A DNA stretch of 64,000 nt from a virus: IMG/VR virus record IMGVR_UViG_3300017743_000005, positions 1-64,000 of that record; one strand, given 5' to 3'. Both the position numbers and the translations under genes were made by a program. Under the pieces are notes generated by a model that saw only the letters and a program-made list of their open reading frames with translations, made no database searches and had not been told where the DNA came from. This document shows, piece after piece, positions 1 to 6,638 of this stretch (the first letter of the stretch is position 1; the number at the start of each line of letters is the position of its first letter).

Positions 1-3000
1 CAATCGAACTTCCAAGTCCACCAACAGATTGTGCAATTTGTGCCAATGACAATGCCGTCAATGCACCTGCAAGTGAGTATATAGCAATGGATGCCATTCC
101 AAGTTGTCCTGCCATTCCAGCCAATTGACCAAGATATTCAACTGATGATTCTAATCCTCCACCGAGAACTTCAAGTCCAAGACCTGCTATTAATGCAGCC
201 GCACCAAATGCAATCAACGAACTTGCCATGATTGCCAAACTAATTGCTCCGATAATGATGAAAGGTAGTAAAGGTCCCAATGCAGCCACGGCAAGGCCAA
301 CTGCAAACAAGTTCTCAACTGCGTTACCAGATAAATCATTCAATGCGTCAGCAGTTAAACTCAAACCAAGACCAAATAATGCCATCCCCACACCTGCAGC
401 TAGTAGTGCTATTGAAAATGGAATCAATGCAACTGTCATAATACCTATTGCAATTGCACCGAGTGCTATAAATGGGATCATTAGTCCCACAAGTGAAACT
501 GCCATTGCTAGATCAATCAATAATTCAGGTGCTTTTGCATCACGAAGCATTTTAAATCCAAGTCCAACCAACGCAACTCCAGCACCAAATGCCAACATTG
601 CGATAGATAGTGGTATTAATGCTACACCTAAAATTGCCAATGCGGCTGCAGTAGTTAATATCAACGGAGTTAATGGAGCAATTAGTGCCATAGCACCTGC
701 GAACAATAATAATCCCATAGCTGCTTCAGGTAACTCTCGTAATGTATCCATAACCAAACTCATTCCAATGCCAAATAATGCGACTCCTGCACCGGCAATT
801 GCTATACCAATTCCAAACGGAATTAATGCTAAACTAAATATTGCCAATCCAATTGCAGCCATTGCCATTATTGGTGCAAGCATTGCCATTATACCAATAA
901 ACATTCCAAATCCAAGTGCAGCCGCAGGAAGTTCTCCTGAGATGTCTACAAGTTGTTTTACTCCAAATGCGAATATTGAAATACCAATACCAGCTGCGAG
1001 CAGACCCACCGAAAACGGAATCAATGCAATTCCAAGAACTCCAATTGCGATTGCAGCTGCCAAAAGTAACGGAGACATAATTCCAATGAATGCAAATGCT
1101 GACCCAAGTGCATATATCATGCCTATATCACCCATAGACATTGATTGTATTGTTTCTATTACTTTACCAAACGCAGATGCTATAATATTAACTGCCGTGG
1201 CAAATGCCATAGCTGCCAATCCAAATACAAGCATAGCACCACCAACTGCAGCTAATGCTCCTGCACCAGCAAGAATAAGAGGAGAAAATTTACCAAGTAG
1301 TCCGGCAACAACTGCAAGTGCCGTGATAGCACCGATTCCAAGCAATACTGCCGAAAACGGAACATTTGCAAACATTTGAAAAGCAAATGCAGCCGGAATT
1401 AACGCAGCTCCTAATATAGCAACCGAGGCAGCCCCACGTATCATATCAGCACTTCCTTTGCTTAATGATTTTGATATAAATACCAATGCACCAATTGCAA
1501 CAAGGCCTTTGACAACTCCACCCCATGTTACTTCACCAAATTCTTGAAATGCTTTAGCAGATATATACAACGCACCAGCTAATATTGCCAATGCTCCGGC
1601 TGCTTTTAGCAAACCAGTTGTATCTATTTTCGCAAATTTATCAGCAAATCCAGGTCCTTTATTTGCACCAGGTGTTGCTTTTGGTGTTGCTGATTTAACA
1701 GGATCTCTTCCAAATGCACCTGTGCCACTTGGTGTTGGACCACTTGGTGCTGGTGTTCCCGAACCACCAAACATTCCTTTTACTTTATCACCGAGTCCAC
1801 CCATTAAATTCAATGCACCCTTTGCCATTGTTGATAATCCACCAAAAAAAGCAGATGCAGCTTTACCTGCTCCACCGAATGCTAATGCAGCCACCACCCC
1901 AATTGTTCCGATTATCGTAATTGCCGTACTTCCAAAGTTACTGAATCGTTCTTTTAAACGATCTGTATCTCCTGTTATAGCAGCTATTAAATCACCGATT
2001 AATGCAAATGGAGCAACAATAAACTTTAATAAAAATCCAATTGCTTTTAATATAGGTACGAGTGCCGACATAAATCCATTTATCACAGGCAACAATGCTT
2101 CTCCTAATTCAACCATCATTTGATTAAATTGATTTTGTAAAGCATTCATTTTTTCTTGTTGAATTTCACGTGCCATTCGTTCTTCGGCACTTTTTGCTAA
2201 ACTTTTTTCTTCACCTCCACGAAGTGCTTCAAGTTGTTTTTGGTATTTTGCCGCCAGTTCTGGATTTTCACGTGCAAACTCAGCATTTTCTTTTTCAATT
2301 TTGTTCATTTTGGTGAGTTCTTCAACACTCGTTCCAAGTGCTTCTGCCAATGCTTGCTTTTGCCAACGATTCATTTTATCGTATCCACCCATCTCTTTCA
2401 TGATACGAAGTTGTTCTTTTTGCATACCTGCCAAGTCACCCTCCATTGCAAGTTGTCGCATCTTTCCAAAATTCACATGACGTCCCATCATGCTTGCTAA
2501 TTTCATTTCCGATGAAATACTGCTTTCAAAATCAAGTAAATGACTTGCAGTTTTGGCAGCCGAATCTAAACTACTTCCCATTCTTCTTGCTTCTACGGCT
2601 GCGGCTGCCAAGTTTCTTGGCATATTACCAATTGCTAATATTGCATCTTCACTTGCATTTGCAACATCTTCCATAACTTTTCCAGCCGGAACTCCTGCCA
2701 AATTACTTAATTCAGCAGTTGCTAATGTTAAATTCTTTGCTACTTCATCACTAGGAGCCCCCATTTCCATAAACTTAACTAATGCACCGGCAGCTGCGTC
2801 TTGACTTATTCCAAGTCCTGCACTTAATTTTGAAACTAATTCTATTTGTCCACGGGTAACATGATTAACATTTCCAAATTCTTCTACCAATGCTTTTGCC
2901 GATCCAACTGCATCTTCTATACTTACTCCAAAATATGCCAATTCTTTATTTACCGATATTGCATCTTTTTGAATTTGTTCCATTGCTCCATACGATAAAC

Positions 3001-4126
3001 CAAGTTCATCACGAAATTCTGCGGTAGTTTTTTCAAGTGCCTGAAATCTTGAAAATGCCAATGCCAATAATGCTACTATACTTCCAATTATTAACACAGG
3101 ACCTGTAAGTACCGACGAAATCATTCCACCGATACCACTCATAGCACCCACGAAATCGTCTGCACCTGCTTTTAATGAATCTGATAGAGTTGCACCGGGT
3201 TTGGCAGCCTCTTGTTGCATTTTTAGAAAACCGTGTGTGAATTTTTCTTTTACTATCTTGGTTGCTTCTTCTAAAGGTTTTTGTACACTTGTTGCTAGTA
3301 TTCCTCCTATAAGTGGAATTTTTTTAATTGTATTTAAAATTCCACTTTGCATTGCATCTATTTCACTGTGAAATTCTTTAATTAAATCTTTGTTATCCTC
3401 AAGAAGTTCTTTCATATTATCCCCAAGTCCTTCTATAATATTTTCTAAATCAGAAGTTACATCGAGATGTTCTTTTGCAGTTTTTATTAATTCACGTGAA
3501 TTTTTAGTTATTTCCATTCGCATATCATATATGCTTTTATCCTGACCCAGTAAATCAGTTGCTTTGGATAGTTCTTCGTCTCTTAATTTAACAAGTGCTG
3601 TTTGTTGTCCTGCTATATCTGCAATCCGTGTTTTTTCTAGTTCAATAGAGTAACCTATTTCTCTGACTATATTTAATTGATCTGCATATCCTGCATCTGT
3701 TTTTTCCATCAAAGAAAGTTTTGTTTGTGAATTTACTAGTTCACTTTGCAAATTTGGTATAAGTTTCTCATGTGATTCTGCTATCAAATTTTGTGCATTT
3801 GCAATTCTGTCATTTAATGAAAACATTTGTTGCAGAATTTTTTCTTCAAGTTCGTGTTCGGTATTTGCTTTCGTTAATTCACGTGTAATTGATAATGACT
3901 CATTTTTTATTTTTTCATACATAGCAGCCGATGTAGTAAGCTGCGTGGATAATTGTTTTACTTTATCACCTCCTACAATATTTATAGCAGAATCTATTTC
4001 ACCTGAATTTAAATTTTCAGTAATTTGCTTTGTAATATCGTTAATTTCAGATTGGGTGGGTAATAACCCACCTTCAATTGATTTTTGAAGTTGTGAAGCA
4101 AAACTATGTATGTCACTATCTTCCAT
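1..4126 (-). CDS. Tail tape measure protein (partial, C-terminus beyond left edge)
   Basis: A frame opens at ATG 4126 (MEDSDIHSF) and stays open to base 1, so at least 1375 residues are encoded and the stop lies outside the window. Residues ~1-240 are polar and helical, typical of a coiled coil. A hydrophobic stretch near 285-310 precedes a region resembling the phage tail tape-measure core (~320-600). A Gly/Pro-rich linker sits near 780-830, followed by very hydrophobic tandem repeats of about 66 residues. Tape measure proteins set tail length and line the tube before DNA ejection. The place fits: it is the last gene after sheath, tube and tail chaperone, starting 3 nt after the 85-residue gene. 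T4 gp29 is 590 residues, so the tail should be much longer than that of T4. Identity is from architecture and context. Confidence 0.85.
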   Translation of the reverse strand, partial: MEDSDIHSFASQLQKSIEGGLLPTQSEINDITKQITENLNSGEIDSAINIVGGDKVKQLSTQLTTSAAMYEKIKNESLSITRELTKANTEHELEEKILQQMFSLNDRIANAQNLIAESHEKLIPNLQSELVNSQTKLSLMEKTDAGYADQLNIVREIGYSIELEKTRIADIAGQQTALVKLRDEELSKATDLLGQDKSIYDMRMEITKNSRELIKTAKEHLDVTSDLENIIEGLGDNMKELLEDNKDLIKEFHSEIDAMQSGILNTIKKIPLIGGILATSVQKPLEEATKIVKEKFTHGFLKMQQEAAKPGATLSDSLKAGADDFVGAMSGIGGMISSVLTGPVLIIGSIVALLALAFSRFQALEKTTAEFRDELGLSYGAMEQIQKDAISVNKELAYFGVSIEDAVGSAKALVEEFGNVNHVTRGQIELVSKLSAGLGISQDAAAGALVKFMEMGAPSDEVAKNLTLATAELSNLAGVPAGKVMEDVANASEDAILAIGNMPRNLAAAAVEARRMGSSLDSAAKTASHLLDFESSISSEMKLASMMGRHVNFGKMRQLAMEGDLAGMQKEQLRIMKEMGGYDKMNRWQKQALAEALGTSVEELTKMNKIEKENAEFARENPELAAKYQKQLEALRGGEEKSLAKSAEERMAREIQQEKMNALQNQFNQMMVELGEALLPVINGFMSALVPILKAIGFLLKFIVAPFALIGDLIAAITGDTDRLKERFSNFGSTAITIIGTIGVVAALAFGGAGKAASAFFGGLSTMAKGALNLMGGLGDKVKGMFGGSGTPAPSGPTPSGTGAFGRDPVKSATPKATPGANKGPGFADKFAKIDTTGLLKAAGALAILAGALYISAKAFQEFGEVTWGGVVKGLVAIGALVFISKSLSKGSADMIRGAASVAILGAALIPAAFAFQMFANVPFSAVLLGIGAITALAVVAGLLGKFSPLILAGAGALAAVGGAMLVFGLAAMAFATAVNIIASAFGKVIETIQSMSMGDIGMIYALGSAFAFIGIMSPLLLAAAIAIGVLGIALIPFSVGLLAAGIGISIFAFGVKQLVDISGELPAAALGFGMFIGIMAMLAPIMAMAAIGLAIFSLALIPFGIGIAIAGAGVALFGIGMSLVMDTLRELPEAAMGLLLFAGAMALIAPLTPLILTTAAALAILGVALIPLSIAMLAFGAGVALVGLGFKMLRDAKAPELLIDLAMAVSLVGLMIPFIALGAIAIGIMTVALIPFSIALLAAGVGMALFGLGLSLTADALNDLSGNAVENLFAVGLAVAALGPLLPFIIIGAISLAIMASSLIAFGAAALIAGLGLEVLGGGLESSVEYLGQLAGMAGQLGMASIAIYSLAGALTALSLAQIAQSVGGLGSSI
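210..1110 (-). repeat. Tandem ~66-residue hydrophobic repeats in tape measure
   Basis: On the minus strand the pattern ALIPFSI/ALIPFGI/ALIPLSI followed by a Gly/Ala-rich helix returns at about 415, 607, 815 and 1014 (plus coordinates). Spacing is about 200 nt. A weaker copy lies near 213 and a divergent one near 1350. The copies differ in sequence, so this is an old protein-level repeat. Confidence 0.7.
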
Positions 4127-4129
4127 ATA

Positions 4130-4387
4130 TTAAATTTCGATATAATCTTTTACGTTTGGGTCTTTTGCTAATGCTTTTTTTAAATCTTCTTTACTTGACA
4201 ATCCAATTCTTTTTAGTTCTTGACGAAATTTTTCAGTATTATCGATATACTTTTGTAAAGAATTTGCCAAACGAGGATCTTCTAATTTGCTTTTTCCGAT
4301 TTTTCTTGCTTTGCCTTTAAAAACTGCATTTACCAACCCACCTATAAATTCATTTAATTGTTGTTCTTGTTCTGTTATATTTTTCAT
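4130..4387 (-). CDS. Small unknown tail protein (85 aa)
   Basis: This 85-residue, lysine-rich, mostly helical protein (starts MKNITEQEQQLNEF, ends DYIEI) lies between the gp26-like chaperone gene and the tape measure gene, with only 3 nt to the tape measure start. I do not recognise the family. Its place suggests a tail assembly role such as a helper of tape-measure folding. A hairpin and a TATAAATA octamer lie in the 95 nt upstream, so it may be transcribed together with the tape measure. Confidence 0.7.
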   Translation of the reverse strand: MKNITEQEQQLNEFIGGLVNAVFKGKARKIGKSKLEDPRLANSLQKYIDNTEKFRQELKRIGLSSKEDLKKALAKDPNVKDYIEI

Positions 4388-4414: not shown

Positions 4415-4447
4415 CAAAAAGTCGTATATATTGATAAATATACGACT
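4415..4447 (-). terminator. Probable rho-independent terminator after tail chaperone
   Basis: Inverted repeat 4420-4428 / 4439-4447 (arms AGTCGTATA / TATACGACT) with a T-rich tract on the gene-sense 3' side (CTTTTTG). It lies between the end of the frameshifted chaperone frame (4483) and the next gene (4387). Confidence 0.5.
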
Positions 4448-4482: not shown

Positions 4483-4731
4483 TTACCTAAATTTGCTTGG
4501 CATATTTGACTTACTTGGCATACTACCTGGTGACTTAGATTTTGCCGATGCCTGTGCTTTTTCAACTTGTTCATTTTCTTTGTTGCGAATGTCGACAAGT
4601 TTTCTGATATAGAATCTGCGAAGGTAAATTGGTAGATTATACACAACATCTTGTGTAAAACCTCCTTGACTATAATATGCGAGGTTAAATACCTCTTCGT
4701 GTAGTTGAATTCTATATTCGGGTGGAAGGGT
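4483..4731 (-). CDS. Frameshift extension of the tail chaperone (gp51-like position)
   Basis: This open frame is in the +1 frame relative to the 311-residue gene and directly overlaps its end. It reads TLPPEYRIQLHEEVFNLAYY onward for 82 residues, ending PSKFR with TAA at 4485-4483. It has coding character: acidic-aromatic start, a YIRKLVDIRN helix, then a Lys/Ser/Pro tail. The frame opens after TGA at 4761-4759 and has no ATG, GTG or TTG until GTG at 4644-4642, which would discard about 30 coding-like residues. The likely route of translation is slippage at the T7 run at 4732-4738, giving a product of about 387 residues. In T4-like phages gp51 is the partner of gp26, and its identity here is by position and pattern only. 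Confidence 0.65.
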   Translation of the reverse strand, partial: TLPPEYRIQLHEEVFNLAYYSQGGFTQDVVYNLPIYLRRFYIRKLVDIRNKENEQVEKAQASAKSKSPGSMPSKSNMPSKFR

Positions 4732-5647
4732 AAAAAAAGTCGACCCCCAATGGGATCGTCATCCTTTCTTCGTATCCAGTATCCTCTGATTCAAAATTAA
4801 ACGTCATATCCAAATCAGGAGTATTTTCCTTGATATGTTCACGAAATGCCAAACTATCACGTGCAAGTAGTTCACGATCAACAAATTGTTTGATAGAATT
4901 ACGATCATCGTTTCCATCAATTGCTTTAATTACATACTTCAATCGTGTAGTAACCTCACTTGTTTCGTTTTTGTTTTTTGTAAACTTTTTCATTGCTTTC
5001 AGTTCGGCATCAATGTTTTGTTCATCTTTATGTGACAACAAACTCCAATGAACTTTCTTTTTGCAAAATGGAAGTTCAAACTCAAACAAATTAGATCCAC
5101 GTTCGTGATTACCAAATTCAAATTCTTTTGCTTCAATTTTAGATAAATCAATTACATCTTGCACATCTTCGTTCGTAGATGGGTCTTTAAACTTGATATT
5201 ATAGTCTTTTCCGTATGCAAGAATACGAGCAGCTATAAAAATAGCATTTTTATCACCAACCAATACATCATTAAGATTGACACCAGGAGTTGCGATTAGT
5301 GCTTCTAGAAGTTTATCAAGAACGACTCCTTTTTTAATTAAATTCTGACTTGTAAGAATATCTTCCTCACGTGCAGTCATGTATTTAATATCAATTTTAC
5401 CAGAAGCAAGTGGAGAAGTTGATTCATAGAACCACCCCTTACTTGGTAGATCAACAACTTCAGTTGGGTATTCTACCTTCTGAACAACATCCGTTGACTT
5501 ACTTGCAGTTGAAGAATGTGTCTGTTGTGTATTTTCAGTTGCCGTGTTGGTCGTTGCACTTTTAGTTGCACCCGATGCGTTATTGTTTCGTTGTAATGCC
5601 TCTCTTACTTCCTGAGGAATATCTACTTTATCATTTTCGTTTGCCAT
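4712..5647 (-). CDS. 26: gp26-like baseplate hub/tail chaperone protein
   Basis: This 311-residue protein has a Ser/Thr/Asn-rich N-terminal ~60 residues. A core follows with VDLPSKGWFYE, KYMTAREEDILTSQNLIKKG and GDKNAIFIAARILAYGKDY, the pattern I know from the T4 gp26 family (T4_baseplate). gp26 acts in assembly of the hub/tape-measure initiation complex and is not an enzyme. The gene lies after the tail tube gene and before the tape measure gene, where tail assembly chaperones lie in long-tailed phages. The last codons GAC TTT TTT TAC carry a T7 run, and an 82-codon coding-like frame continues beyond the stop in the +1 frame. This protein may therefore be the short form of a pair. Confidence 0.75.
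   Translation of the reverse strand: MANENDKVDIPQEVREALQRNNNASGATKSATTNTATENTQQTHSSTASKSTDVVQKVEYPTEVVDLPSKGWFYESTSPLASGKIDIKYMTAREEDILTSQNLIKKGVVLDKLLEALIATPGVNLNDVLVGDKNAIFIAARILAYGKDYNIKFKDPSTNEDVQDVIDLSKIEAKEFEFGNHERGSNLFEFELPFCKKKVHWSLLSHKDEQNIDAELKAMKKFTKNKNETSEVTTRLKYVIKAIDGNDDRNSIKQFVDRELLARDSLAFREHIKENTPDLDMTFNFESEDTGYEERMTIPLGVDFFYPSTRI
4732..4738 (-). promoter_or_regulatory. Candidate ribosomal slippery site (T7 run)
   Basis: Gene-sense GAC TTT TTT TAC CCT at the end of the gp26-like gene (codons for D303, F304, F305, Y306). A +1 (or -2) slip on the seven Ts joins F305 to the downstream TLPPEY frame. The hexa/hepta-T run and the absence of a downstream start codon are direct observations. 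Slippage is inferred. Confidence 0.55.
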
Positions 5648-6146: not shown

Positions 6147-6638
6147 TTAGTATTGGAGAATTGCGTAATCGTATGAAAGAGTAAGTTCAACCGTTGAAAA
6201 CTCACCAGTTGCCCAATCAAGTGTACCTGGATTCATTGCGTTAACAAACGCACCTTTTATTGTCCATTCTTCTACGTAGTCACCAACGGGTCCTAGAACA
6301 TTAATTGTGAGGTCTTTTTTATAGAAGTCGGCATAACCATTTCTTCCTGTTACCGATTCATGTGAAAGACGAATCCATTCCATTGCAGCCTGTGCTCCAG
6401 ATGGAACTACCGGATCATAAAGTGTTATTGAGATGTCCTGCCACTCTGCTTTACCTGCTCTAAGTTTTCTTTTGATATTGATATGATCAATTGTTTGAAC
6501 ATCAATATTAAGATTCGGTCTTGCCGTTGCTTTAATAAGATAAGATGGAAGACCATCGATATACATGATAAAACGATTTTGTGTCTTCGGTTCAAATGCC
6601 GTAAAGAACATTTCCTGTGTTTCAACTACTTGTGCCAT
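6147..6638 (-). CDS. 19: Tail tube protein gp19
   Basis: A 163-residue protein, the same size as T4 gp19 (163). Features of the tube family are visible: the N-terminal strand NRFIMYIDGLPSYLIKATARP, a central INIKRKLRAGKAEWQDISITLYDP loop-strand, and the C-terminal VELTLSYDYAILQY. Hexamer rings of this protein stack to form the inner tube through which the DNA passes. The ATG at 6638 has a GGAG Shine-Dalgarno site. The gene has its own terminator, as expected for a protein made in very high copy. Confidence 0.93.
   Translation of the reverse strand: MAQVVETQEMFFTAFEPKTQNRFIMYIDGLPSYLIKATARPNLNIDVQTIDHINIKRKLRAGKAEWQDISITLYDPVVPSGAQAAMEWIRLSHESVTGRNGYADFYKKDLTINVLGPVGDYVEEWTIKGAFVNAMNPGTLDWATGEFSTVELTLSYDYAILQY

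Follow-up and report, generated by a model that had tools for sequence, protein, structure and literature searches.

The window analysed here is a 64-kb stretch out of a 66.8-kb virus record, and all features described below lie on its minus strand. A gp19-like tail tube gene (6147–6638; PF06841, E 1.1e-7; phrog_4542, E 5.9e-23) is followed by a gp26-like ORF (4712–5647) of 311 codons, which encodes the G domain of a tail chaperone in its short form (311 aa) and ends in TAG at 4714–4712. The run TTT TTT T (4732–4738), read as GAC TTT TTT TAC in the zero frame, lies close to this stop. The +1 frame holds a further domain, T (4483–4731), with 82 codons (4731–4486) closed by TAA (4485–4483). A small ORF of 85 aa and unknown function (4130–4387), with a weak match to phrog_6435 (E 0.023), is located between the T domain and the tape measure gene (2–4129), a 1376-codon open frame that is incomplete at the window end. 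The G/T pair is thus situated between the tail tube and tape measure genes, the gene order of a G/GT chaperone pair, and the annotation of Flavobacterium phage immuto has the same order of sheath, tube, gp26, small ORF and tape measure. An inverted repeat, GTCGTATATT...AATATATACGAC followed by T5, is found just past the T domain (4417–4447) and may act as a terminator that separates the chaperone gene from the small ORF.

The 3′ end of the gp26-like ORF reads CCA TTG GGG GTC GAC TTT TTT TAC CCT TCC ACC CGA ATA TAG, and from the slip the +1 frame reads ACC CTT CCA CCC GAA TAT AGA ATT CAA; the predicted fusion of the gp26-like protein with the T frame is 387 aa long. The +1 frame is open from 4758, before the slip. 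In the window no start codon is present in it between the upstream stop and the slip, and the first one after the slip, GTG 4644, is 29 codons in and inside the conserved domain. The T domain of the window is reached solely through the shift. A second frame that overlaps the first, is coding and lacks a start of its own is the frame arrangement of a G/GT pair. Substitutions in the +1 frame are in excess at the third position (0.43, vs 0.25 at position 1 and 0.17 at position 2), nearly to the same degree as in the gp26 frame itself. An earlier sequence-only reading had described the end of the gp26-like gene, the 82-codon +1 frame and the lack of a start codon before GTG 4644; renewed reading of the minus strand bore out its coordinates, and the absence of a start stands for the window.

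The nearest cultured relatives are Flavobacterium phages, and close genes are also present in Flavobacteriales metagenome-assembled genome (MAG) contigs; a Bacteroidota host is therefore inferred to be likely.

The G part matches Pfam PF12322 T4_baseplate (E 2e-7, 31.4 bits vs a cut-off of 24.5) and phrog_150 baseplate hub (E 1.4e-8). A structure predicted from the single 311-aa sequence was too poor to use (pLDDT 34.5); the alignment-based AlphaFold model of G has a pLDDT of 80.7. The top three of 441 chains compared with this model are 3klu YqbN (Z 5.8), 2ob9 HK97 tail assembly chaperone (Z 4.9) and 5ir0 PICI-like (Z 4.5), with the next, unrelated chain at Z 3.0. Only 2ob9 is titled as such; YqbN and the PICI protein are tail-chaperone-like. 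All Z values for G are below 8, which is modest and alone not decisive; a Foldseek search with the model gave no significant E value, and no solved structure matching G by sequence was found. Family membership is a direct result; the likely fold is suggestive, the modelled G being best matched by tail assembly chaperones at modest Z. The record of an Acinetobacter phage already names gp26 a ‘tape measure protein assembly chaperone’. Pfam DUF6760 was considered for the T segment and rejected as below cut-off (16.8 vs 27 bits).

Conservation of the slip site and direction of the shift

A search of viral contigs with the window gp26-like protein yielded 63 loci, and a second search with the protein of Flavobacterium phage immuto yielded 80 more. 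The +1 arrangement is present in 137 loci including the window, 87 of them non-redundant after removal of near-copies; as these loci are related, counts do not represent independent events. Among the loci of the first search with readable junctions, the position of TTT TTT T, followed by the T frame in +1, is unchanged over an identity range of 93 % to 44 %, with two exceptions (L042 and L043, described below). The T7 run is invariably present in the close and mid groups (37/37). The same site, with the T frame in +1, is found in seven further contigs from bacterial genomes (MAGs). The first Phe codon is TTT, followed by T or C, in 87/87 of the non-redundant +1 relatives, all with the T extension in +1. 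The coding strand has few T7 runs, only 12 in 64 kb. Elsewhere in the +1 genes TTT makes up only 74–86 % of Phe codons, so composition alone would leave some TTC at the slip codon. Recurrence of this slip codon together with the frame change, in 137 loci, is far above chance. The frame arrangement and its conservation are observed; production of the fusion is inferred.

The second codon of the site is TTT in the window group and TTT, CTT or CTA in the immuto-like group. The slip site is TTT TTT C in Bacillus phage SP-15, TTT TTT A in Listeria phage LIS04, TTT C in LR756508, TTT TTT T in Rhodothermus phage RM378 and TTC TTT C in Streptococcus phage GXN1. One rule, tRNA-Phe on UUU moving one base to UUU or UUC, fits nearly all relatives; in GXN1 it holds only for the second Phe codon. 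The proposed slip codon in the window is the first UUU (4738–4736), with tRNA-Phe in the P site and a pyrimidine next. The variable second codon fits a +1 shift on UUU-Y and, for those variants, excludes both a -2 shift and RNA-polymerase slippage. A relative from a Winogradskyella MAG (L267:2501–3220) has eight T's at the site (TTT TTT TTC), although its T frame is still in +1.

The -1 slippery heptamer X XXY YYZ (T TTT TTN) was sought in the window and is absent, as C precedes the run. A -1 reading is interrupted by stops in most relatives; it is open in the window and in a few of them. The base before the slip codon is T in 0/87 of the +1 group, although T makes up 37–41 % of third bases and most codons at this position could end in T; in the -1 clade described below the base before the run is T in 43/43. 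A T before the slip codon would produce a -1 heptamer, and absence of one of the commonest third bases suggests that this heptamer is avoided in the +1 group.

The upstream hairpin and the proposed slippage

Among 26 non-redundant close relatives, synonymous identity is 1.00 at GAA AGG ATG ACG ATC and at GGG GTC GAC, against a gene mean of 0.61. These codons (-10 to -6 and -3 to -1 relative to the slip site) form a conserved block over the hairpin stem and spacer (4739–4768). TTT TTT is also synonymously invariant, whereas the Pro and Leu codons between the invariant blocks vary. The invariant parts pair as CGATCCC/GGGGTCG, giving an RNA hairpin of 7 bp with a 4-nt loop (CGATCCC-ATTG-GGGGTCG, 4741–4758), a proposed stimulator that ends 2 nt upstream of the slip site. 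No other 30-nt segment of the window gene folds as strongly (z -5.3, rank 0/263), and an equally strong fold arises in just 0.3 % of synonymous recodings (P 0.003). The hairpin of the close relatives has a median z of -4.3, with z below -2 in 26/26. Many members of the immuto-like group have a weak hairpin or none, with z under -2 in only 18/50, and in L160, L169 and L063 the hairpin was not significant by the synonymous recoding test. Hairpins of unrelated sequence occupy this position in other clades: GTACCG-ATGA-CGGTAC, GTCC-CTATA-GGAC as part of a longer stem, and CGCATCC-CGTT-GGATGCG before TTTC. In L071 the hairpin ahead of TTTC has the geometry of that in the window. The synonymous constraint and the potential to form a hairpin are observed, and the role of the hairpin is inferred. 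In prfB, a tightly spaced Shine–Dalgarno sequence pushes the ribosome forward; by analogy, a duplex so near behind the P site could plausibly do the same.

The locus would thus encode a lambda G/GT-type chaperone pair on the T4 gp26 fold. Most ribosomes would stop at TAG 4714–4712 and produce the 311-aa G form. Some would slip one base forward with tRNA-Phe on the first UUU of UUU UUU U, a move permitted by the pairing of tRNA-Phe with both UUU and UUC, and continue in +1 to produce the 387-aa GT form, with the small, probably helical T domain as its tail. The hairpin would probably help by forming again behind the ribosome and so driving it forward. By analogy with lambda, G would coat the tape measure protein, and GT, the less abundant form, would recruit tube subunits, a division of labour that is inferred. 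The locus qualifies for the G/GT group by its gene order, by the arrangement of its frames and by the conservation of its slip site; the fold is suggestive, and product formation is inferred. That a fusion is made at all, by any mechanism, is very likely, albeit without protein or mRNA data; that it arises by +1 ribosomal slippage at UUU-Y and serves as a G/GT pair in the window phage is considered probable, with no product measured and the ribosomal nature of the shift an inference.

The same fusion could come from a shortened mRNA if RNA polymerase, with the hairpin in its exit channel, dropped one of the seven U's. Such stem-loop-mediated transcriptional slippage has a direct precedent in Roseiflexus IS630, where a hairpin beside T5C5 in a transposase is associated with a one-base deletion (PMC5009743). 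The hairpin likewise adjoins the U7 tract in the window clade and the mid group, in which the run is strict, and hairpin plus U7 also resembles the anatomy of an intrinsic terminator. However, transcriptional slippage calls for the run to be kept wherever the frame change is kept, and this is not met: relatives with TTTCTTT, TTTCTAT, TTTTTTC and TTCTTTC, unlike Roseiflexus IS630, retain the frame change without a homopolymer, and L071 retains its hairpin before TTTCTATTC. Seven T's are also fewer than the nine reported to slip efficiently unaided in bacteria. Slippage by RNA polymerase is thus held to be unlikely overall; given the likeness to a terminator and to Roseiflexus IS630 it is kept for the window alone, where it remains possible and is not excluded. 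A -2 ribosomal slip on the U run, adding one extra Phe, would follow the tail chaperone precedent of phage Mu (PMC5009743), and T4–T6 of the run can re-pair with T2–T4, but re-pairing would be poor in the TTT CTT T and TTT CTA T relatives and there is very little to recommend it.

Separate translation of T by re-initiation or from an internal start, without any fusion, draws support from start codons at or just after the gp26 stop in cyanophage, Dickeya and Pseudomonas relatives. A possible +1-frame start, usually TTG at -11, also occurs shortly before the slip in 8/26 close relatives and 40/50 of the immuto-like group. The window and the other 18/26 close relatives have no upstream start, however, and the first GTG of the window falls within the conserved domain; neither the strict TTT-Y and T-TTT-TTC sites nor the in-frame fusions of L042 and T4 gp51 would be explained, and separate translation is judged improbable. 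Relatives with a start codon of their own for the T segment had been named beforehand as grounds for refuting a frameshift. As a rule no ATG is present at the +1 junction, which favours the frameshift; the cyanophages do have an ATG, behind a strict -1 heptamer. Finally, homopolymers are error-prone and an assembly indel in the T run had to be considered, but the same site and frame change are conserved in 137 loci, among them independent contigs, named isolates and bacterial MAG contigs, with synonymous constraint around the site, and an indel can be regarded as refuted. Programmed frameshifting that extends a gp26-family tail chaperone, as put forward by the sequence-only reading, remains the best-supported interpretation, given that slip site and frame are conserved in relatives. 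Its placement at the T7 run is supported and can be refined to a +1 shift at UUU-Y with an upstream hairpin, which that reading had missed.

Relatives with a -1 shift and the link to gp51

In all 78 cyanophage loci examined (43 non-redundant), gp26 is immediately followed by a short gp51 that lies in the -1 frame after T TTT TTC. As in the window, T succeeds G in a different frame, at the same Phe-Phe codons; unlike the window, the shift is -1, often with GGAGGG upstream, and an ATG comes soon after the stop. GGAGGG is located ~11 nt upstream of T TTT TTC in most cyanophages, a spacing at which this motif stimulates -1 shifting. An ATG lies three codons past the slip in the 43 non-redundant contigs from cyanophages, and re-initiation may therefore play a part in these phages. 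In KVP40-like, Aeromonas and Rhizobium phages the same domain is likewise in the -1 frame, preceded by T TTT TTC or T TTT TTG; the latter is found in Rhizobium phage Y68 and is the P2 heptamer. No ATG precedes the domain core in S-RIM8, Aeromonas phage Aswh_1 or Rhizobium phage IC12. In Pseudomonas phage Cygsa01 and Dickeya phage RC-2014 the frames are coupled by TAATG, and a clear slip is lacking.

In cyanophage S-RIM8 (L256, 1611–1799) gp51 is annotated from an internal ATG and the domain is cut off, and in Aswh_1 (L263, 1605–1770) gp51 is unannotated; a -1 shift at T TTT TTC would account for both. In Salmonella phage PhiSH19 (L259, 1713 onward) a T-like domain in the -1 frame has neither an ATG close to its start nor a clear slippery heptamer (GAG ATT TTC ATT TAA), and its expression is unexplained.

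Cyanophage gp51 has been described as ~20 % of the usual length and as matching only the C-terminal end of T4 gp51 (Sullivan et al. 2010; PMC3037559). With HHalign, cyanophage T and the T4 gp51 tail match at 97.7 % (E 1.8e-12). T of the window group matches cyanophage T at 62 %, or 81 % with widened sets (controls 4 % or less), and matches T4 gp51 directly at only 1.4 %. By profile comparison, the link between T domain and gp51 is strong for the cyanophages and moderate for the window group. The relationship to gp51 suggested in the sequence-only reading is real but indirect, as the tail matches only the C-terminal domain of T4 gp51 and gp51 is itself a gp26 paralogue. Paralogy follows from the match of both T4 proteins to PF12322 (E 8.8e-64 for gp26 and 3.9e-52 for gp51); only gp51 extends past the domain.

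Gene duplication and the T4 exception

L042 and L043 belong to the +1 clade, but the run is gone (TTC TTC TGG) and the +1 frame has no T domain. Both have tandem gp26-like ORFs (L042:3001–4724), the second of which carries the T domain in frame. These loci are a natural replacement of frameshifting by duplication, and T4 gp51 has the same architecture as their second ORF. The two T4 genes belong to the same PF12322 family as the window gene, with the gp51 C-terminal domain in place of the T extension; unlike the window, they are separate, divergently transcribed and without a frameshift. In two pseudo-T-even phages (L077, 2001–3294; L253, 1501–2795) gp51 and gp26 are in tandem on one strand, unlike the divergent genes of T4.

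A tree of 54 G domains places gp26 and gp51 of the T4 group in one clade (100/98), which adjoins the -1 shifting VH7D and Aswh_1 (96/89). A branch with 100/100 support separates these from all +1 genes and the L042 pair. The tree is midpoint-rooted, with weak support at some inner forks and several long rows. The sequences are most simply explained by two lineages that shift in opposite directions, each with one duplication.

Lambda gpG/gpGT and P2 gpE/E′ resemble the window locus in that two frames overlap between the tail tube gene and the tape measure gene, with a slip near the end of the first frame and a small C-terminal domain, and the window G has chaperone-like fold matches. Lambda and P2 shift by -1, in contrast to the +1 shift at UUU-Y with an upstream hairpin proposed here, and the window G is longer than its counterparts and of the gp26 family. 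Tail chaperone shifts other than -1 are known at other sites in other phages: -2 in Mu and a probable +1 in the haloarchaeal myovirus HSTV-2 (Atkins et al. 2016; PMC5009743). The same authors describe G/GT frameshifting as widely conserved ‘except T4’ (PMC5009743). In a review of the T4 tail, gp26 and gp51 are hub assembly chaperones and the function of gp51 is unknown (PMC3004832). No paper linking frameshifting to the gp26/gp51 family was found in the open-access literature; subscription papers and bioRxiv were outside the scope, and absence is not proof.

These comparisons raise the possibility, on balance slightly favoured, that T4-type contractile tails as a whole carry G/GT, in a +1 UUU-Y lineage, a -1 T TTT TTC lineage, and a frameshift-free duplication in T4 with gp26 as G and gp51 as GT. 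The +1 lineage is proposed to comprise the window, Flavobacterium, Bacillus and Rhodothermus phages, with the shift partly driven by the push of a hairpin, and the -1 lineage is proposed to comprise the cyanophages and the KVP40-like, Aeromonas and Rhizobium phages, using the same Phe-Phe codons. T4, the listed exception to G/GT frameshifting, looks like the gene-duplication version of G/GT.

Many phage genomes miss or mis-start the chaperone fusion protein. The homologous codons provide a natural series of +1 shift, -1 shift, in-frame fusion after duplication and coupled re-initiation, which is useful for determining how shift direction is set, whether by the base before the Phe codons or by a hairpin or Shine–Dalgarno-like element. 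The data suggest why T4 looks exceptional and predict roles for gp26 as G and gp51 as GT; if true, the G/GT reading of the whole group would end the status of T4 as an exception and give gp51 a function.
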